From contig NZ_CP104398.1 in NCBI RefSeq assembly GCF_025311495.1, positions 1,736,001-1,800,000 on the forward strand: DNA of 64,000 bases, read 5' to 3'. The notes under the pieces were generated by a model. That model was not told where the DNA came from. It saw only the letters and a program-made list of their open reading frames with translations, and did not search any database. The translations under genes were made by a program, and so were the position numbers. Numbering within the stretch: position 1 is the first letter of the stretch; each line of letters begins with the position of its first letter. Below are positions 18,611 through 64,000 of this stretch, piece after piece. Source of the DNA: Limosilactobacillus oris (GTDB taxonomy: Bacteria; Bacillota; Bacilli; Lactobacillales; Lactobacillaceae).

Positions 18611-19371
18611 TTAGTTGATTTTAGTGTTAGTTACCGTGGCGAGCTGATTGAGCAGGGCCGCGGTTTTGAGCCGTGAAAGGGGACAAATGTGGGGGCAAGC
18701 CCCAGCACTACTGTATGGTTATGGGTGTTAATCTGACTCACCTTGGTAATATTAATCAGGCAGTTCCGGTGACTGCGGAAAAAGAATTGGCTGCCGCGTT
18801 CCAAACTCGTCAATGAACCGTGTACCGTGACTTGCTGGCCATTCGTCAAGTAGAGAAATGACTGGTGCGAGTTGCGGGGATTCGGGGCAAAGCAGAGGGT
18901 GTCGGCCAAAGCAATCCGGGTATAGCCAGTCCCAATTTTCAACAGGATGGTAGGCTGGTTGAGCTATTTTATCTGCTTGATTTTCTGGTTGACGAGCACA
19001 ATATCTTGCCGGAGGCGTTCAGTGATATTGGCCGTGCCTTTGGAAATAAAGTCCAGGGCGGCTGCTTGGTAGCGATAAGTGTCCGGTAATAATTCGTCGT
19101 GCACCGTGATAAAGATAATGGTGGCGTACGGGTCGTATTGGCGGACCAACCGGCTAACTTTTAGCCCGGCCTTGGTGTCACCGGCGACTTCGAGGCCGAG
19201 CAGGTAGACGTTGTCCATGCTCGGCGCTGGCAAGTGGGCGGTTAATTCGCCGACCGTTGCGTAAGCCTTGATGGTGGCAACGGCAATTTGCTGCTCCTTA
19301 GCGATTGAGTTGAGTGCCTTTTCCAAATTAATTTGCTCGATCCATTGATCTTCTAGGATAAAAAAGTTCAT
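18611..19371 (-). pseudogene. Broken AgrA/ComE-type response regulator (receiver + LytTR)
   Basis: Codons 1-135 give a receiver domain, then TAG at 18964-18966. In the same frame, reading continues into a LytTR DNA-binding domain (FFRSHRNCLINITKV near the middle). A second lesion follows. Near the C-run at about 18690-18703 the frame is lost, and the expected ending CPLSRLKTAALL... is found one base out of register, stopping at 18611. The undamaged protein would be about 255 residues, normal for this family. One nonsense codon plus one frameshift make function unlikely. It lies downstream of a broken histidine kinase, so the whole peptide-sensing system has decayed. Confidence 0.85.
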
Positions 19372-19538
19372 TGCGAAAAATACCCCATGATTAACAATTG
19401 AATTTGGGATGAAAGGGAAGATTTTCCAGAGACATATTTTAACAAAAAAGCAATTAGCTTAATAATCCGTTCGTTGACAGACTAACGATTAGAAAAAGGG
19501 GGAGGAGGTTCGTGAAAGCGCTTTTTGTTTAGCAGATA

Positions 19539-19637
19539 TTATTCCTTAATAATTTTAATCGGAACATAGTGTTTTGTGGTACGTAGACAGGAAATGGTGG
19601 TGCAGACTTGCAGTCGGGAGCTTCGTACTGTAATCAT
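19539..19637 (-). CDS. Possible 32-residue peptide between kinase and regulator
   Basis: ATG at 19637 lies seven bases after GGAGA and opens a 32-residue basic frame with two cysteines (VCTTISCL). A pheromone precursor often accompanies this type of kinase/regulator pair, but it usually precedes the kinase. This peptide lacks a double-glycine leader or clear AgrD features. It may be chance. Confidence 0.25.
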   Translation of the reverse strand: MITVRSSRLQVCTTISCLRTTKHYVPIKIIKE

Positions 19638-19684
19638 ATTAATTTCTCCAATTACCCGCTAGTATCTTATACTTTAGCGTAAAT

Positions 19685-19716
19685 AAAAACGGCCCCTCGT
19701 TGCGCACGAAAGGTCG
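19685..19716 (-). terminator. Terminator after the histidine kinase remnant
   Basis: On the minus strand ACGACCTTTCGT pairs with ACGAGGGGCCGT (one mismatch, G-T pairs) and runs into T5. It ends the kinase transcript before the regulator. Confidence 0.65.
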
Positions 19717-19724
19717 TAAAATGG

Positions 19725-21052
19725 TTATTTGCCCTCCCCCTTAGGAAGGATGATTCGTTGCTCAAACCAGTAGTTATTTGAGCTCCGATCATTGATCGCC
19801 TGAGGGTACTTTGCAAGAACAATTCTGAGGTTACGGAGACCAATGTGATGACTCGCGTTAAGATTAAAGGTAGTCGAACCGGCATCTAACTCTGCTAGGT
19901 CAAGCTGCTCCTGCTTAGTCGAATTGCCAATGACGATAAACTGGGCGTGCTCATTTTCATAAAGGGCGAGATCAATCTTCTTATCTTGCGATTCCTTAGC
20001 TGCATGAATCGCGTTATCAAGTAATATTGAAAGAACTCTCAGGGCATCGACCTGGTTCAAAGTAGCAGTTAGGTCGATGGGCTGTGCAACTTCCAAGGTT
20101 ACGTTTAACTTATCCGAAATTGCCTGGTTGACCTTTCCATACACTACGGATTTGATTCCAGGATTGGTAATGTTTTGAAGGTTTCCTAATGCTTTGGTTG
20201 GTGTGTTAATAATGGAAGCAGTGGAGTTGGTTAGCCGGGCCAGTTCCCGTTTCGCATAGTCTAAATTATCCGTATCAAGTGCGCTCTTGAGACTATAGAG
20301 AACGTTCTTGTAATCATGCTTAAAACGGCGCATATCATCATACATCACTTCAAGTTCTGAAGTGTAATCTTCAAGGTTTGATAGCTGGGCATTAGCAAAC
20401 ATCAAGCGTTCGTTCTTCATCAAGACCTTACCGACAACGTAGAATAACAAGACAATGACGATATAATAGCTAAGGGCGATGAAAATCTCCAGTCCAACTA
20501 AATTACTGGCGTGGAGAATACCACGTAGAACCGTTGGTAGATACTCAATCATGTAGAAAAAGTAGGATAATGGAATAAAAAGCAGACTGAAGAGGTACTT
20601 TAATCCAGAATAGTGGTAAGCTGTTACCTTGAAATAGTCAACGAGTAGCGGTCTGGTCACTTGAATTAGGATTAAGCCAAACGCATAACTAATCAGGGTC
20701 GCCAGGAAGTTGACAATCCCCAGCAAGCTTCCCAGCCGTTCTTGAACCACCGGCATTCGGACGCAAATAAAGGTAAAGATGTTTGCCAGGTAGTAAATCA
20801 GCATGCTAATTCCGAATTGGGAAATAATAGTCGAAAATCTTTTTCGGTTGGATTAGCGAAATAAAAAACGGCGAGTGCACCGCAGAGGGTTATAATTAAG
20901 TCATTTAGAAACAAGTTCGGCTGAAGAAAAGGACAGACGATGAAAAAGCCGACGTAAAACGAGAAAGGAATTTTGGCCCTCGTCAGATGGCGGTATATCC
21001 CCCAAAAAGAAATTCCATAAAAAATCTCCGCTTTAATAAACCAGCTCAACAT
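19725..21052 (-). pseudogene. Frameshifted HPK10-type sensor histidine kinase
   Basis: The N-terminal 71 codons (MLSWFIKAEIFYGISF..., two or three membrane segments) read into a T5 run at 20840-20844 (A5 on the coding strand). There the frame changes; the rest continues one register away (FSTIISQFGIS...) to TAA 19725-19727. Restoring one A joins both parts into about 442 residues. That is the normal length of the six-helix AgrC/PlnB kinases, with the H-box DMRRFKHDYKN and N-box LLDNAIHAA present. The start has no good ribosome-binding site, and its upstream DNA is shared with the divergent lipoprotein promoter. It was probably the pheromone receptor of the broken regulator next to it. Confidence 0.85.
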
Positions 21053-21077
21053 ATATAATGGTGAAGGAGAATTAAGA

Positions 21078-21797
21078 ATGGAAATTGCAAAAGCAACAAC
21101 GACGGCATTGGTAGGAGTAAGTCTTTTTCTACTGGCTGGCTGTGGCAATCAGCAATCGAGTGCTACTAGCAAGCGCTCGTCGGTTACGACAACGCAAACG
21201 AAGACTAAGACAACCCATCAGCAAGACCAGATTGTTGGTAGCTTCGTTGATAGTGAAGACGGAGCTGCTATCCAGTTAAAGAGTGATGGTACTGGTCAGT
21301 ACGTTTATGCTGACTCAGGGGAGCCAGATACTAATGACCAGCTGACTTGGAAGAAGGATGGCGATCATTACACGGTAACTCTCCAGGATAGCAACGTTTC
21401 TAGTCCGTTGACCGCGACGCTTGATGGCAACCAATTGACCCTGTCCGGGGATAGTAACTGGAATACGGAACACTTCAAGAAAACTACTAAGAAGCTTGAC
21501 CTGAACAAGTTCCTGGCTGATCAGCATAAGCAAAATGGGGATGCTAATAATGGGCAAAACCAAACAGCAGACACCCAGGGTAGTAATAATGCTGCTAACG
21601 CCGGGACGGCACAAGGTAATGATGGCAGCCAAGACGGGAATGTAAAGGACTTTACTGATTCTATGGGTGGACACCACCACGTTGTGATGTCAGGTGCAAC
21701 CGATAGTGATGGTCACCAGATGGGGGTTGACCAAGAAACGGACCCTGATGGTAGTAGCCATACCTTCCAATATATTGATGGAATGATGCCGTATTAG
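21078..21797 (+). CDS. Lipoprotein of unknown function
   Basis: The 239 residues start with a lipoprotein signal peptide ending LLAGC (C22), so the mature protein should be lipid-anchored outside the cell. A Ser/Thr-rich linker (about 24-50) follows, then a beta-rich domain with IVGSFVDSEDGAAIQLKSDGTGQYVY (in two parts) reminiscent of small extracellular DUF domains. After that comes an Asn/Gln/Gly-rich stretch and a His-containing C-terminus (GGHHHVV). AAGGAGAA lies before ATG 21078. It is divergent from the dead kinase. I do not recognise a function. Confidence 0.8.
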   Translation: MEIAKATTTALVGVSLFLLAGCGNQQSSATSKRSSVTTTQTKTKTTHQQDQIVGSFVDSEDGAAIQLKSDGTGQYVYADSGEPDTNDQLTWKKDGDHYTVTLQDSNVSSPLTATLDGNQLTLSGDSNWNTEHFKKTTKKLDLNKFLADQHKQNGDANNGQNQTADTQGSNNAANAGTAQGNDGSQDGNVKDFTDSMGGHHHVVMSGATDSDGHQMGVDQETDPDGSSHTFQYIDGMMPY

Positions 21798-21823
21798 TGG
21801 GAAGCTAAAATAGAATACCCTTC

Positions 21824-21862
21824 AGCAGCTCGTGCCAAAACCATGGCCCGGGCTGCTTTTAT
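21824..21862 (+). terminator. Terminator after the lipoprotein gene
   Basis: AGCAGC-CG-GCC pairs with GGC-CG-GCTGCT and is followed by T4. Confidence 0.8.
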
Positions 21863-21977
21863 AGTTGCATAGGATTGCAAAATTATTTTAACTGTAATTT
21901 TACGGAGAAACTGGCTTACTCCCTAACACTACTCCTTGCTCTAGCCAAGCCTGGCAGGTATAATCAACGAAAATTCC

Positions 21978-22007
21978 TTGACGGCTACGGCGGTAATTCG
22001 CTATAAT
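21978..22007 (+). promoter_or_regulatory. Promoter of the second tRNA-Asn
   Basis: TTGACG (21978-21983), an 18-bp spacer and TATAAT (22002-22007) end 19 bases before the tRNA. Confidence 0.7.
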
Positions 22008-22026
22008 TAATTCGTTAAGTTATTAT

Positions 22027-22099
22027 TCCGGCATAGCTCAGTTGGTAGAGCACCTGACTGTTAATCAGGTTGTCGTCAGTTCGAGTCTGACTGCCGGAG
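22027..22099 (+). tRNA. tRNA-Asn (GTT), second copy
   Basis: It is identical to the copy after the 5S gene at 9355-9427. Here it has its own promoter. Confidence 0.97.
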
Positions 22100-22106
22100 C
22101 TAATTC

Positions 22107-22140
22107 AAAGGGACTGGTGATGATTCGCCAGCCCTTTTTT
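22107..22140 (+). terminator. Terminator after the second tRNA-Asn
   Basis: AAAGGG-TGG pairs with CCA-CCCTTT, continuing into T6. Confidence 0.85.
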
Positions 22141-22235
22141 AGTACCTGCGTCGTCAAAATAGTGGCATTTTGATCTTTTTCCTCATATAATAAATTTTGT
22201 AAGGATAAGATAAATATTCGGGGAGAAATATTTAA

Positions 22236-24236
22236 ATGAAAGAACGTAAGAAATTATATAAAGCCGGTAAACTCTGAGTTACCGCGACTTTGGTAGCCTT
22301 TGCCGGTATCGTTGTTACAACGACTTCTGCATCCGCTGACGATAATACTGTCGTTGCCACGCCACAGACGAGTCAAGTTAACAGTAACGAACCAGCGCCG
22401 TCAACCAGCACCGCTACGCCTGCCGACGCGACTTCAGCCACACAAAACACGCTTGCTCAGCCGGCCAACACGGCAGTTAGCTATGCTGCTGCGAATACTA
22501 CGAGTTAGGAAACTACTACCAGCACGTTGAACGGCCCTACCAAGCTGCCGTCGAACCAGGTGCAAAACCCACGGAACTACACGATCGGTGTTTACCGCAA
22601 CGAAACGTTGATTTACACCTACCATCTCCAGCTTTCCCAGCAGGGGTTGAGTAACATGCGGCGGGTGCCGGATTTGCAGGGGTATACTCTGCAGTCCAAC
22701 GTAACGACCACGATTCAGCTTTACCAACCGTACACCCCTAATACCCAGGACTACCAGCAAAATTATGGGAGCCTGGATGGCTATTCAATCCGCCAGACTT
22801 CCGCAACTGAGGCGGCCATCCACGTTGCTGGTTGGCACGCCAGCGGTGCTTCGTCACTGATGCCGTATGGCTGGCTGATTGTGTTCGACAACACCCGTGG
22901 GCGTGAAATCAAGCGGGTAGCGATTGACCCGGTCAACCGGCCTGATGTCCAAGCGGCCTACCGGAACGTCTACGGCAGCCTGCAGTCCGGCTTCAACCAG
23001 GATATTATCATTCCGCTGTCCGCCGCTGGGGATGATTTAACGATTATTGCCCGTTATTCCAGCGATTTTATTAATGGTGAGGGCCAGCGGATTGACCACT
23101 GGTTTAACCGTATCAACGCTGACCACGGTAACCATGCCTGGATCGACAGTGTTCAGTACGTCAATGGTCACTTCCAGGTTAACGGCTGGCACGCCACGAA
23201 CCAGGCCCTCGGCAAGAACCACCATACGCTGATTATTTGGGACGCCAGCCAGGGCCGGGAGCTAACCCGGATCCCGGACGTTGCCGCCGTGGCCCGTTCT
23301 GACCTGGCTAAGGTCTACCCGACAATTCTTGGGGCGGACCACGCTGGCTTTAGTGTGGAAGTCCCGCTCTTGCCAGCGATGGTTACGGATAACATCCAGT
23401 TCATCAGCCGCTACTCCAGCACGGCAGATTCAAACCGCGATTACGTGGACTACTGGTTTGCGCCCCAACAGCTGTTGAGTGACCACCGCAACCAGGGGTA
23501 CCTGGATAGTGTCAATGTGCAAAATAGCAAACTCCATATTGATGGTTGGCACGCCACTAACCAGTCGATTGGGCGCCCTTACCACACCTTGATTATTCTG
23601 AACGCCCAAACCGGGCACGAGCTCCTGCGGTATACAACTAAACAGTATGCTAGCCGTCCTGACCTAGCCCGGGCCTTTCCGGGAATCGTTACGGCCGGGC
23701 AGTCCGGCTTCAATGTGGACCTCCAGCTAGTACTGGGAATGGGGAACCAGCCCCTCCAAATTGTTAGCCGGTGGAGTGCAACCCAGGATGCCAACAGCAA
23801 CTATGTCGATTACTGGTTCGCACCGGTAACACTTTATCGTGACACCGCGAACCGCGCGAACCTGGACCGCATCGCCATCCAGGGCAACGTGGTTTATGCT
23901 AGCGGTTGGCACGCGACGAGCCAGTCGCTGGGCCGGCTGTACCACTACCTGCTGCTTTTTGACCGGACGACTAACCGGGAAGTCCAGCGGGTCAAGGTAA
24001 CGGCTGCCAATAGCGCCCGCCCGGATGTTGCCCGGGCCTTTCCGGGTACTTACAACGCCGGCCAGTCTGGTTTCAACACGCAATTCACGGTTCAGCCAGC
24101 GCTTAACGGTCACGACCTGGTAGTGCTGAGTCGGTGGACTGATGACCCGGCAGGAAATGGGAACGCCGTCGACTACTGGTTTGATCAGACCGTGACGCCA
24201 AACGTCCCGGTTGATAAGGCCAAGCAGCTGGGCTAG
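22236..24236 (+). pseudogene. Surface repeat protein with KxYKxGKxW signal peptide and two in-frame stops
   Basis: One frame of 667 codons runs from ATG 22236 (GGGGAG upstream) to 24236, broken by TGA 22275-22277 and TAG 22506-22508. The start encodes K-L-Y-K-A-G-K-L, then TGA exactly where the KxYKxGKxW secretion motif needs Trp. A hydrophobic signal segment ending TSASA and a Ser/Thr/Ala-rich linker follow. From about residue 180 there are four related repeats of roughly 110 residues, each with GWHA, SGF, SRW/SRYS and DYWF. Such repeats occur in lactobacillus secreted cell-wall proteins. No LPXTG anchor or catalytic domain is seen. Apart from the two stops the frame is intact, so the damage looks recent; a second start could yield only a signal-less product. 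Confidence 0.88.
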
Positions 24237-58003: not shown

Positions 58004-58112
58004 TACGTGTGCCTCCAATTTATTAATCCCTACAAGTATAGCATGGTTTGGGGCAATGATGGGGACAAGTGGTATACTATTAGAGGTAGAATGTCAAAAA
58101 GGAGATCCGAGA

Positions 58113-58967
58113 ATGATTACATTAAAGTCACCACGCGAAATTGACGCGATGGAAAAAGCCGGGGCCGCTTTAGCAGCGATGCACCTGGGAATTCGGGAAT
58201 TTATCAAGCCGGGCATCTCAAGTTGGAAGATCGAAGAATTTGCCCGGAAATACTTCAAAGCTGCTGGGGCTAAGGCTGAGCAGATCGGCTTTGAGGGTTA
58301 CAAGTACGCGACCTGTGTCAGTGTCAACGATGAGATTTGTCATGGTTTTCCCCGTAAGAACCTGGTATTGAAGAAGGGGGACCTGGTGAAGGTCGACACG
58401 GTGGTTAGCGTCGACGGCTTTTTCAGTGATTCCTGCTGGTCGTATGCGGTCGGTGAGGTTAAACCGGAAATTCAACGGTTAATGGACGTGACCAAGAAGT
58501 CACTCTTCATGGGAATTGACCAGTGTGTCCCTGGCAACCGGATTGGGGACATTGGTGCGGTCATCCAGCACTACACGGAAGACGAAAATGGCTACGGTGA
58601 CGTCCGCGAGTTCGTCGGTCACGGAATCCAGCCGACAATGCACGAAGACCCAATGGTACCGCACTATGGTGAGCATGGTCAGGGCCTGCGTCTCAAGAAG
58701 GGGATGACCATCACGGTTGAACCGATGATCAACACCGGAACGTGGGAAGCCGACACGAGTGACCCGAGTGGCTGGCTGGCGAAGACTGCTGATGGCGGCT
58801 GGTCCTGCCAGTACGAACACACCCTGGTGGTAACTGATGATGGGCCAAAGATTTTGACCTCCCAGGATCCGGAAGCCGATGCCAAGTACATGTACAATGA
58901 TAATTACGCCAAGTACCTGGAACACTACGCCAAAATTTCTCGGGAAATTGCGGAAGAATTTAAATAA
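58113..58967 (+). CDS. map: Methionine aminopeptidase, type I
   Basis: The enzyme removes the initiator methionine. The 284 residues keep the five metal ligands: the two Asp in VKVDTVVSVDGFFSD, His in FVGHGIQ, Glu in TVEPMINTGTW and Glu in CQYEHT. The C-terminal extension of about 30 residues after ILTSQD is typical of the lactobacillus form. ATG 58113 follows AAAGGAG; the longer frame to 58056 has no such site. A second map elsewhere cannot be excluded. Confidence 0.94.
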   Translation: MITLKSPREIDAMEKAGAALAAMHLGIREFIKPGISSWKIEEFARKYFKAAGAKAEQIGFEGYKYATCVSVNDEICHGFPRKNLVLKKGDLVKVDTVVSVDGFFSDSCWSYAVGEVKPEIQRLMDVTKKSLFMGIDQCVPGNRIGDIGAVIQHYTEDENGYGDVREFVGHGIQPTMHEDPMVPHYGEHGQGLRLKKGMTITVEPMINTGTWEADTSDPSGWLAKTADGGWSCQYEHTLVVTDDGPKILTSQDPEADAKYMYNDNYAKYLEHYAKISREIAEEFK

Positions 58968-59130
58968 CTCGCTGTAATTAAGCGGCAGTTCACTATTAAT
59001 TTAGTGGGTTGCCGCTTTTTTGATGAAAAAATTACGCTGAATGCACGCTGGAGCAGTTCAATGCAACTTGGGGACGGGGGATTTTAGTAAACTAGGGGGC
59101 GTGTTTATTAAATCGATTGGGGGAATTAAG

Positions 59131-59877
59131 ATGTTTTGCCCGAACTGTGGCAAGAAGGTTTCAGCAACGGCGGACTTTTGCCCGTACTGCGGGAGCAAAC
59201 TAGATCATTCTGCGAATGAAGAAGAACGGGTGGTACCAGAAAAGCAAGTCAAAGCGACGGGCCAACCGGACGCTAACCACCAGCCAGCACCGTCATCATC
59301 GAACGGGAATGGTAAGAAGCCGGGGAAGAAGGTCCCGCTAATCTTAGTCGGCGTGATCGTCGTCCTTCTGGCCGCCATTGCCTTTATGTTAGGAATGCGG
59401 GGAAGTAGCAAAGATTCGGCATCGACGAGTAGTGCGCAGACAACTAGGACTATCAGTAAGAAAAACAGCAGCACGAGCCGTTCGGCGAGCCGGCCGACCT
59501 TTAACGATCAGCAGAAAGCGGCCGCCATTCTATACTATGCCAAGGAAAATGAATCCAATCGCTTCTGGGGTGAACTCTACCGTGATGCGTTGGCTAAGTC
59601 TACTAAGGTGACCGCTAATAGTTTGCCGGACGAGGCTACTGAGCAGGGCGACGGGACCATGCACGCTTATTATCCTACGGGAGCATTTTTCGGTGGGGCA
59701 ACCGGGTACGTCATGGGCACCGATAGGCAGACGGTCTATTACTACCGGCTGGGTCCCGGTGCCGACAGCATTGACCCCGACGACACCGTTACGCTAAACG
59801 AGATTGAACAATATGTTATTGATCACCACGCTATGGACCAGGTCAACCAGCTTGCTGGAAACATCAAACTTGACTAG
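59131..59877 (+). CDS. Zinc-ribbon, single-pass membrane protein (cluster gene 1)
   Basis: The 248 residues begin with a zinc ribbon (C3, C6, C17, C20). A charged/Pro-rich linker, one membrane helix at about 70-88, a Ser/Thr-rich stalk and an outside domain (about 125-248) follow. ATG 59131 follows GGGGGAATTAAG. The ribbon should stay in the cytosol and the domain outside, as in staphylococcal TcaA. The outside domain (AAAILYYAKENESNRFWGELY, and EIEQYVIDHHA near the end) is repeated in the next gene, so the two are paralogues. Function unknown. Confidence 0.85.
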   Translation: MFCPNCGKKVSATADFCPYCGSKLDHSANEEERVVPEKQVKATGQPDANHQPAPSSSNGNGKKPGKKVPLILVGVIVVLLAAIAFMLGMRGSSKDSASTSSAQTTRTISKKNSSTSRSASRPTFNDQQKAAAILYYAKENESNRFWGELYRDALAKSTKVTANSLPDEATEQGDGTMHAYYPTGAFFGGATGYVMGTDRQTVYYYRLGPGADSIDPDDTVTLNEIEQYVIDHHAMDQVNQLAGNIKLD

Positions 59878-59885
59878 GAGGAGCT

Positions 59886-60491
59886 ATGAAAACTAAGAAC
59901 GTTGTTATTACAGTTGTCGCTGTCGTATTGGTGCTGGTTGGAGCCTATTTTGCTGGGCGCACCTTTAGCAAACCGTCCGTCGACAGCAGTCAAGAGACGA
60001 GTACAAAAGCGGCGGCGCAGCAGAGCAGTGCATCATCCTCGTCGGCAACCGGCACGAGTTCGTCGTCGACCAGCGCTGACGCTGACCAGTTGGACTATAA
60101 CACGATCACCCCGATGCAGACGGCGGCCGCCATTATGTACTACGCCAAGGACAAACTCAGCGACCAGAATGACTGGCATAGTATCTACACTGCCAATGGG
60201 ATTGACCTCTTTCAAAGCAACAATACCGAGCACCTGTCTGACCCGGGGCGGGGCGTCTGCTGGAGCCTGCATCCTTCTAATATGGCCGGGGGCGACACTC
60301 CGACCTATACCGTTGGTGCCGATGGGACGGTAAGCTACTACCACGTCACCACCGTTAACCAGAACAAGGATAAGGATCCCCTCCTGACCGTTAACCTGCA
60401 TGACATTATCAACTACGTTAACAGCCACCACGCGGTTAGCGATATTAAGGCTAAGGCGCAGGATATTCACGCAACAATCGATAACCAGTAA
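59886..60491 (+). CDS. Membrane-anchored protein, paralogue of gene 1 without zinc ribbon
   Basis: The 201 residues have an N-terminal hydrophobic anchor (about 5-25), a long Ser/Ala/Thr stalk (30-65) and an outside domain starting TAAAIMYYAKDKLSDQNDWHS and ending LHDIINYVNSHHAVSDIKAK. This domain matches that of the upstream gene in pattern. It starts eight bases after that gene (TAGGAGGAGCTATG), so it is in the same operon. Function unknown. Confidence 0.85.
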   Translation: MKTKNVVITVVAVVLVLVGAYFAGRTFSKPSVDSSQETSTKAAAQQSSASSSSATGTSSSSTSADADQLDYNTITPMQTAAAIMYYAKDKLSDQNDWHSIYTANGIDLFQSNNTEHLSDPGRGVCWSLHPSNMAGGDTPTYTVGADGTVSYYHVTTVNQNKDKDPLLTVNLHDIINYVNSHHAVSDIKAKAQDIHATIDNQ

Positions 60492-60516
60492 GCGACTGAC
60501 AGAAAGAGAGAGTTAG

Positions 60517-61671
60517 ATGAATTTTTGTGAAAAGTGCGGGGCCAAGTTACGGCCCAAGCAGAAGTTTTGTGAACGGTGTGGGGCACCGGTAGCCAGTGCG
60601 CCGGCTTCAGATGAAAAACGGGCGTCAGGTGAGCCAAAGCCAGCACGGCAGGAGCAGGAGACCGCCAAGAAAGCGCCGGATCAACCGGCAACGGTTTCTT
60701 CAGCGGAGCATGAGCGCCTGCAAAAACAGTACGCTGCCTTGGAGAGCCGCCTGAAGGATGAGCGGCGGAATAGCAAGGTGAACGTTCTCGCTCGGTTAGC
60801 CTTTACCCGGGCGCATTTTAACCAGGTTTTACAGTTCGTGAAGGATAACGCCCTGACGATGTTCCTCTTTTACCTCCTGGCTGTTCTCCTGCCGGCCCTC
60901 CGCTGGTACCTGCTGATTATTTTTATCTTGATGGTCTATCTCTTTCCGCTGCTTTCAAACGAGCAGCGGTTCAAGTGGGACGAAGCCGTAGACAATTACC
61001 TGCGGGATGAGGAACAGCTCAACAAGATTCGTAACTCAGCGGCGGGGATGTACCGGTCACTTCGTAATGGCCAGCCCGCCCAGGAACCGGCTGAGGAGGA
61101 AGCGCCTGCTCAGCCGCAGGGGACACCAGATCCAGCGCCGCAGAAGGCAAGTGCGACTGCGCAAGCAGCGAATGCCGCTCTTTCCCCAGCCGCAGGCTTT
61201 TCATGGAACGGGGAAGCAATTTTCGGCATCATTGCGACGGTTCTCGGCGCAATCATGTACTTTATGACTAGGGATGAGGCAGGGAGTTTCCTTAACCAGG
61301 GTCTTTCCGTCCTGCAAAGCGGGGGCTTAAACAGCGCAGCCTACCTGAATCTTTGGGGGTTCGTTATGCTGCTGGTCGGGGTTCCCGCGATTATCGGTGG
61401 GATTATTAAGGGGGCCACGCACCATCTTGGCGGCGGAGTCCTGAAAACTTTGGGGGTCCTCCTGGCAGGAGGCTACGGGCTTGCCTATTCATACGTTTTT
61501 GCGAATGCGGCCGAAGTTGCGGGCCGGACAGCCGTCGCAACCCTTTCCGGTGATACCTCCCTGAGCGACCTGGAGAACCTGGCCCACCTGGTGCAAATTA
61601 TTCCGTGGCTGGTCATCGGACTATACGTTATCGGGATTTTGGTTAATGCCGTTTCAAGCCGGCAAAAATAG
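60517..61671 (+). CDS. Zinc-ribbon, multi-pass membrane protein (cluster gene 3)
   Basis: The 384 residues begin with a zinc ribbon (C4, C7, C18, C21). A charged linker with a possible coiled coil (about 62-88), a hydrophobic pair at about 112-148, a Pro/Ala/Gln-rich stretch (about 185-220) and four further hydrophobic segments to the C-terminus follow. AAGAGAGAG precedes ATG 60517. I do not recognise the membrane domain. Confidence 0.82.
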   Translation: MNFCEKCGAKLRPKQKFCERCGAPVASAPASDEKRASGEPKPARQEQETAKKAPDQPATVSSAEHERLQKQYAALESRLKDERRNSKVNVLARLAFTRAHFNQVLQFVKDNALTMFLFYLLAVLLPALRWYLLIIFILMVYLFPLLSNEQRFKWDEAVDNYLRDEEQLNKIRNSAAGMYRSLRNGQPAQEPAEEEAPAQPQGTPDPAPQKASATAQAANAALSPAAGFSWNGEAIFGIIATVLGAIMYFMTRDEAGSFLNQGLSVLQSGGLNSAAYLNLWGFVMLLVGVPAIIGGIIKGATHHLGGGVLKTLGVLLAGGYGLAYSYVFANAAEVAGRTAVATLSGDTSLSDLENLAHLVQIIPWLVIGLYVIGILVNAVSSRQK

Positions 61672-61683
61672 GAAGGAAGAAAA

Positions 61684-62748
61684 ATGAAATTTTGTAGTAA
61701 TTGCGGTACCGAGCTCAACCCTGGCGCCGCTTTTTGTCCGCACTGCGGCGCTAAGGTCGAGCAGGCAAAGCCAGCTAAGGCGTTTGAAATTACCCGGCAG
61801 TTTTGGCTGGGCTTTTATCTAACCTTGGTTGGGGGAGTGGCAGCCGGAATCGCAGTCAACATTGATACTTTGACCACGTTGGTTCCGTCTGCAATCATTG
61901 ATCCGGTAATGACGCTGCTGATAATCATTGCCTGTGCTGCTATTCCGGGAGTTTTCACGTTAATTACGGGAATCGTACGTGGCTTCAACCACCAGCGAAC
62001 GGGGATCGGACAGACGGTTGTCGGGCTGGCGCTGCTGTTGGTGGCCGGCTCACTGGCCAGTGTAATGTTTGCTGGGGAATACAGTATCAGTAGCACGATC
62101 ATAGTTATTAGCCTGTTTTGCTATTTCATTGCCAGCGTAATTTTCGTATTAGCCTATTTCACGGCAATTTTTGTCACTAGCAAACCAGCGGCAGGAGAGC
62201 AGGTCCGGCAATTACGCTGGGCAGTGGCCGGTATGACCGTGGTCGCCGTCCTGCTTTTAGCTGCCCTGCTTCTGGGAATTGTTGGCTTCCTAATCGTCGT
62301 AATTGTTTTGGCTGGTGCACCGTTTTTAGGTCGGCGCCTTAGTTTAAGCGGCGGAAGCGCTTGGTGCCTTTTAACTCATGAACATAGCCGCAGGCTGAGC
62401 TGGCGCTTTTATTTGGCCCTCCTTGTCCTCGTTGCTGGCGTCGGCCTGCGCATGGCAAATATCTACCAGGCGGCGGGAGTGATCCTGACGATGGTCCTGA
62501 TTATGGCTGCGGAATGGTGGAGCAACCCGCAACGGCTGGGAAAGCAGCCCCGTGAGATGGCCGGCTGTCTGCTAGTGGTTGCCATTCTGCTCCAAGTGAT
62601 TTACCTCTCATTGGGGAGCCGGATGAATAACGCGTGGCCAATTGTGATTGCAATCTTTATCTTAATGGCTGCGTCATTTTTTACCTACTTCTACGTCATA
62701 TTACGGACGCGGTTTGTGGTTAAGAAAGGGGAGGCTGGTACCGAATGA
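61684..62748 (+). CDS. Zinc-ribbon, multi-pass membrane protein (cluster gene 4)
   Basis: The 354 residues have a zinc ribbon (C4, C7, C18, C21), a short linker and about nine or ten hydrophobic helices arranged mostly in pairs, with no soluble domain of size. GGAAGGAAG precedes ATG 61684. Its stop overlaps the next start by four bases (ATGA), so the two are tightly coupled. No transporter motif that I know is visible. Confidence 0.82.
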   Translation: MKFCSNCGTELNPGAAFCPHCGAKVEQAKPAKAFEITRQFWLGFYLTLVGGVAAGIAVNIDTLTTLVPSAIIDPVMTLLIIIACAAIPGVFTLITGIVRGFNHQRTGIGQTVVGLALLLVAGSLASVMFAGEYSISSTIIVISLFCYFIASVIFVLAYFTAIFVTSKPAAGEQVRQLRWAVAGMTVVAVLLLAALLLGIVGFLIVVIVLAGAPFLGRRLSLSGGSAWCLLTHEHSRRLSWRFYLALLVLVAGVGLRMANIYQAAGVILTMVLIMAAEWWSNPQRLGKQPREMAGCLLVVAILLQVIYLSLGSRMNNAWPIVIAIFILMAASFFTYFYVILRTRFVVKKGEAGTE

Positions 62749-63521
62749 AAAAATGTTCCCACTGTGGTCACCCGCTAAAAGCGGACCAGAGTTTCTGTCC
62801 CCAATGTGGCACGAAGTACGTTGCTCCGCAGGCTCAATTCGTCAAACCGGTTAGCTATCAGGGGCATCGGCAACGATTCTGGCGGCAAATTGGAATTGCC
62901 CTTATTCTCGGGGCAATCGTCGTCGCCATTAGCTGGCTGGCCTGTTCCAGTTATAATCGGCATCGGCTAAGCGTGACGAAGGAAGATAGTGACCTTGTTT
63001 GGTTAGTCACCCCGGATAACCAGACCGTTGACCGGCTTGACGGCAACACGAAAGTGGCCTATGCCTACCGCTTCTTCTACAAGAATAATGAATTTTATGC
63101 AACAATCTATAACTTAGGCGATACGGAATTAGGGGATCTTAAATTAGATAATGGTCGGCTAACCTACCGCAGTATTGCAAAGTACGTGGGGATGAAAGAA
63201 GGTACGTATAAACCTAGTTATCATGAGCCTTCTGTGATTGAAGGCAAGCAGAAACTAACTAAAGAAGATCCTGTCCATTTAGGCTTTAAGCACTATGCAC
63301 TTGATGATGACGATCCAGGACAGTATCAATACGACTCGCAACTGAATTTAATCCAGGCAAAGATTAGCCAGCGGTTAAACAACGGTAATTATGCAGTTGG
63401 CTACCGGACGAACCAGACTGATGATGATTTGGACCCTAGTCACTCTCACAAGGGCTACCTAGTGACAATTACCGGGCACGCCAACCAGCAGGCCGTTTTT
63501 CAATACGGAAAAGTGTACTAG
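62745..63521 (+). CDS. Zinc-ribbon, single-pass membrane protein (cluster gene 5)
   Basis: The 258 residues have a zinc ribbon (C4, C7, C18, C21), one helix at about 47-68 and an outside domain of about 190 residues. That domain is rich in Tyr and Asp (AYRFFYKNNEFYATIYNLGD; GYRTNQTDDDLDPSHSHKGY) and differs from that of genes 1 and 2. GGGGAGG lies upstream. Function unknown. Base composition in the second half is AT-richer than in the neighbours. Confidence 0.82.
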   Translation: MKKCSHCGHPLKADQSFCPQCGTKYVAPQAQFVKPVSYQGHRQRFWRQIGIALILGAIVVAISWLACSSYNRHRLSVTKEDSDLVWLVTPDNQTVDRLDGNTKVAYAYRFFYKNNEFYATIYNLGDTELGDLKLDNGRLTYRSIAKYVGMKEGTYKPSYHEPSVIEGKQKLTKEDPVHLGFKHYALDDDDPGQYQYDSQLNLIQAKISQRLNNGNYAVGYRTNQTDDDLDPSHSHKGYLVTITGHANQQAVFQYGKVY

Positions 63522-63542
63522 TAATAATATTAAGGAGAACCA

Positions 63543-64000
63543 ATGAAATTAGGAAAGTGTCCCCATTGTGGGGGAAGTTATAAACCGGGGGCCCGCTTTT
63601 GTCCCCACTGTGGGCAGGAGTTACCGGCAACCCGGCCGCGCCGGCGTCAGGAAATGACGAAGCATTTTGACCTGCGGGGGCTGGGCCTTCACCCATTTAA
63701 AAAGCAGGATTGGAAATGGTACGCGGGGCTCGTTCTCGCGGTGATCGTAGCACTAACCAGTGCAATTTTTATTGTGATTGTTAACCAGGACTACTACGCA
63801 ATTTTAAACCAGCAGGAACCATCACTGGTTGATGCCTACAATAAGGTGGGGCGCAGTTTAACTAACCAGGTTACGGGCATTGTTATCCCCAGCTACCTTA
63901 TTTTAGGAGTGGCGTTGGCGGGGCTGGCCTGGCTGCTGGTTAAGGGCAAGAAGCAACAGCGGATTATGGTTGTTGAGATCGCAGAAGTACTGTTATTGGT
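63543..64000 (+). CDS. Zinc-ribbon membrane protein, runs off the window (cluster gene 6)
   Basis: ATG 63543 follows AAGGAGAACC and opens a zinc ribbon (C6, C9, C20, C23). A basic linker, a helix at about 58-80, an outside loop and a second helix at about 115-132 follow; the frame is open to the right edge. It continues the cluster, which therefore extends beyond the window. Confidence 0.8.
   Translation, partial: MKLGKCPHCGGSYKPGARFCPHCGQELPATRPRRRQEMTKHFDLRGLGLHPFKKQDWKWYAGLVLAVIVALTSAIFIVIVNQDYYAILNQQEPSLVDAYNKVGRSLTNQVTGIVIPSYLILGVALAGLAWLLVKGKKQQRIMVVEIAEVLLL

Follow-up and report, generated by a model that had tools for sequence, protein, structure and literature searches.

In TcaA of S. 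aureus (NF053815; PF22813/PF22820), an N-terminal zinc ribbon is followed by one transmembrane segment and domains outside the cell; an AlphaFold prediction (PMC10328498) places the ribbon in the cytosol. The same order of parts occurs in a row of six membrane-protein genes, here called the ribbon cluster, at the end of a 64,000-nucleotide stretch of contig NZ_CP104398.1 from Limosilactobacillus, a gut-type lactic acid bacterium (genome G000, positions 1,736,001 to 1,800,000), hereafter the window. The AgrC/AgrA and LytTR-type systems of lactobacilli (Lr70430-70432 and Lr70529-70533 of L. reuteri 100-23, and lam of L. plantarum) share with the loci studied here a kinase and a LytR/AlgR-type regulator, and, according to their descriptions, biofilm or surface outputs are a common feature. 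Unlike in those systems, a ribbon membrane protein is encoded here between or beside the kinase and regulator. In the Spc cluster of L. rhamnosus (SpcB with KxYKxGKxW, SpcA, and SpcC), as at the present loci, envelope proteins accompany a large KxYKxGKxW protein; unlike the present loci, the Spc cluster has Big-3 domains, and the word zinc is absent from the main text of the Spc paper. We read the ribbon cluster as an accessory envelope module that is co-produced with large surface proteins and controlled by an Agr-like LytTR system, with a probability of roughly 0.6.

LytTR regulators bind direct repeats of 9-11 nucleotides, separated by spacers of 11-13, before target promoters (PMC4847170). 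Sequence comparison identified direct repeats of this form before predicted promoters, including that of the ribbon cluster:

59037..59065, plus strand: predicted LytTR operator CTGAATGCA-N11-TTCAATGCA, a 9-nucleotide direct repeat with an 11-nucleotide spacer, 65 bases 5' of the gene 1 start
59088..59093, plus strand: predicted -10 box TAAACT, 22 bases 3' of the right half-site, judged by eye

Most other operator-like sites have a predicted -10 box in similar phase, also by eye. Copies are located 5' of four KxYKxGKxW surface-protein genes; another adjoins an AgrA-like regulator gene, and others precede ribbon clusters of relatives. The KxYKxGKxW tally comprises all 25 matches of two genomes (13 in G000 and 12 in L. 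oris), of which three in G000 and one in L. oris were placed by locus position, the motif not being found; 3 of the 12 L. oris entries have an operator score of 13 or more. Because the control sites are alike, one sensor system probably activates the cluster and the large surface proteins jointly, and both are predicted members of one regulon. A strong operator copy in genome G010 (L249) has no downstream gene of a fitting kind. In G000 at 1.555 Mb (L163:9241-9269), an operator-like repeat lies between a LytTR regulator and an amaP/asp23-type operon; since it points at amaP, envelope-stress genes may belong to the same regulon.

The row spans positions 59131-64646 in window numbering and follows metAP:

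58107..58967, plus strand: metAP (methionine aminopeptidase), left border, present in 43 of 50 genomes of the genus
58980..59017, plus strand: terminator-like hairpin of 16 pairs, with a T run, 3' of metAP (L040 1981-2018), identified by pattern matching alone
59131..59877, plus strand: gene 1, from an ATG inside the longer open reading frame (ORF) 59041-59877
59886..60491, plus strand: gene 2, from the ORF list and BLASTP, with a structure model of E1
60517..61671, plus strand: gene 3, from the ORF list and Pfam ribbon match
61684..62748, plus strand: gene 4, from the ORF list and Pfam ribbon match
62745..63521, plus strand: gene 5, from the ORF list and Pfam ribbon match
63543..64000, plus strand: gene 6, continuing beyond the window end

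The ORF list bears out the operon-like layout of the initial annotation, with gaps of 8, 25, 12, -4, and 21 bases. Gene 6 encodes 367 amino acids and ends at the equivalent of position 64646, 646 bases outside the window (L040). The hairpin would set metAP apart from the cluster; the region has 9 matches to such a pattern, compared with 7.2 in shuffled sequence. All six genes appear to be under purifying selection, with ratios of nonsynonymous to synonymous divergence of 0.06-0.21 relative to L. oris (first 280 codons only for gene 3).

Genes 1, 3, 4, 5, and 6 start with CxxC-x10-CxxC ribbons that score 28.5 to 36.8 bits against PF13240 (Pfam cut-off 25; full-length gene 6, 26.4 bits), whereas gene 2 has a membrane anchor and no ribbon. 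Two members are polytopic. The 2.0-Mb genome contains nine PF13240 matches in eight ORFs (E up to 0.01), five of which fall in this row, and the ribbons are thus not gathered by chance. Of the remaining ORFs, two (0.943 and 1.553 Mb) have Agr-like kinases and regulators as neighbours, and the third lies elsewhere, at 0.307 Mb. Outside the ribbon, profile searches gave no match of the cluster proteins to a known family above curated cut-offs, so they are not clear members of unrelated families.

The outside domain E1 is common to genes 1 and 2 (BLASTP E 1e-10, 37 of 126 residues identical), as the initial annotation had noticed. E1 matches no Pfam family; its predicted structure is a confident fold like that of Lreu_0056 of L. 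reuteri (PDB: 2mqd). In the fold test, the model had the same fold as Lreu_0056 over most of E1, a likeness at fold level only, with 8% identity and no sequence match. E1 occurs in 10 of 40 sampled Lactobacillaceae genera. The tally of its anchors, from which 2 of 53 sequences were dropped as parts of others, is biased to ribbon proteins, many loci having been fetched via ribbon searches. At L043:7178-11147, ribbon proteins carry E1 and then DUF4767 in a single chain.

A LytTR regulator lies beside four of seven related clusters, and three of these four are accompanied by an AgrC-like kinase and a further ribbon membrane protein as well. Pfam identifies receiver and LytTR domains in the regulators of three relatives; the regulator of G000 shares 46% identity with one of these and scores 85 bits against the AgrA model, below its cut-off of 400. 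Agr quorum sensing proper, defined by an AgrB/AgrD pair, was not recognised: AgrB exceeded its cut-off in none of four genomes (G000 and L. oris each have a single weak match, 16.9 bits against 23), and AgrD was not searched for. The gaps read near the kinase and regulator held no convincing peptide gene. The window also contains a decayed copy of a kinase, regulator, and surface-protein unit (18631-22304), in which the regulator is broken by a stop (18631-18942 and 18964-19371, minus strand), the kinase is in pieces (19725-21148, minus strand), and the KxYKxGKxW start has an internal TGA (22239-22304). The accessory Sec adhesin system was not found in G000, where the best SecA2-model match scored 919.9 bits against a cut-off of 930. 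Each of six genomes has one match at 919-927, probably the housekeeping SecA. A second match, above the cut-off, occurs in L. oris and in L. agrestis; that of L. oris (L256) contains one internal TAG.

Among the genomes searched, the same six genes, in the same order and place, occur only in L. oris DSM 4864 (G020), the closest genome met. The cluster was not present at 20 other Limosilactobacillus sites read. L. coleohominis, L. agrestis, and others carry versions of it that have diverged and been rearranged. The cluster is a genuine accessory operon whose arrangement is preserved in one sister genome and reshuffled elsewhere; the expected conservation of order held in that genome, with partial linkage elsewhere, and the genes are not scattered singly. 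Silent-site divergence of the block is at least fourfold that of the nearest flanks, which indicates that the block is exchanged as a cassette.

An unlikely alternative is a TcaA-like wall-stress module, in which proteins with a ribbon, transmembrane segment, and ectodomain alter wall polymers and respond to antibiotics or peptides, the Agr-like link being incidental. The shared order of N-terminal ribbon, membrane segment, and outside part favours it, as do TcaA proteins adjoining a ribbon protein with about five transmembrane segments in this bacterial order (L042, L047) and the site pointing at the AmaP gene of an alkaline-shock-type operon. The second and third/fourth TcaA domains were not found (best NF053815 score 26 bits against a cut-off of 550; PF22813/PF22820 not listed; hhalign 0.1%). 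By profile, the ectodomains are unrelated, and the cluster, in contrast to TcaA, is a six-gene unit with one member lacking a ribbon and two polytopic. Kinship to TcaA is confined to the ribbon; the analogy supports the proposed cytosolic ribbons and outside domains, whereas the suggested sensing of metal or wall stress found no direct sign. L042:5008-16706 encodes a TcaA protein, a ribbon protein with five transmembrane segments, a VWA and beta-lactamase-like protein with a ribbon, and more; similar TcaA-like and multi-transmembrane ribbon neighbours occur at L044:7282-9124 and L047:7504-10106. These TcaA-like calls were made by Pfam for L042 and L047, and by alignment only for L044.

It is quite improbable that six loosely related ribbon genes, each working alone, have gathered at a permissive site, which would suit their differing membrane and outside parts and the gain and loss of members between species. 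A cassette for defence or competition, through phage exclusion or bacteriocin immunity, would account for the patchy spread and exchange, but is likewise quite improbable. PADLOC gave no solid model match to known anti-phage systems.

In the accessory envelope module that we favour, the Agr-like LytTR system would turn on the cluster and the large surface-protein genes via the shared predicted operator, and the six membrane proteins would act alongside the surface proteins. A physical complex and a biochemical job of the cluster proteins are guesses. It is improbable, if conceivable, that membrane zinc ribbons form a dedicated wiring class in Lactobacillaceae, in which the ribbon of a protein beside an AgrC-like kinase and those of its target cluster would meet on the cytosolic face and couple the sensor to surface-protein display sites, with E1 domains outside as matched readers.

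The initial annotation mentions neither the LytTR-type site nor the cassette-like exchange, nor a link to large surface proteins and an Agr-like two-component system. The predicted link between ribbon cluster and LytTR/Agr-like surface regulon did not appear in the literature searched, where no paper gave a role for such a cluster. Membrane proteins with ribbons recur across lactic acid bacteria, and the previously unnamed outside domain E1 now has a predicted fold. The shared LytTR-type site would connect the cluster with large surface proteins and with an Agr-like system that includes a ribbon membrane protein of its own. It may thus offer a cheap, concrete handle on the roles of these proteins and a route to the signals sensed by orphan kinases.
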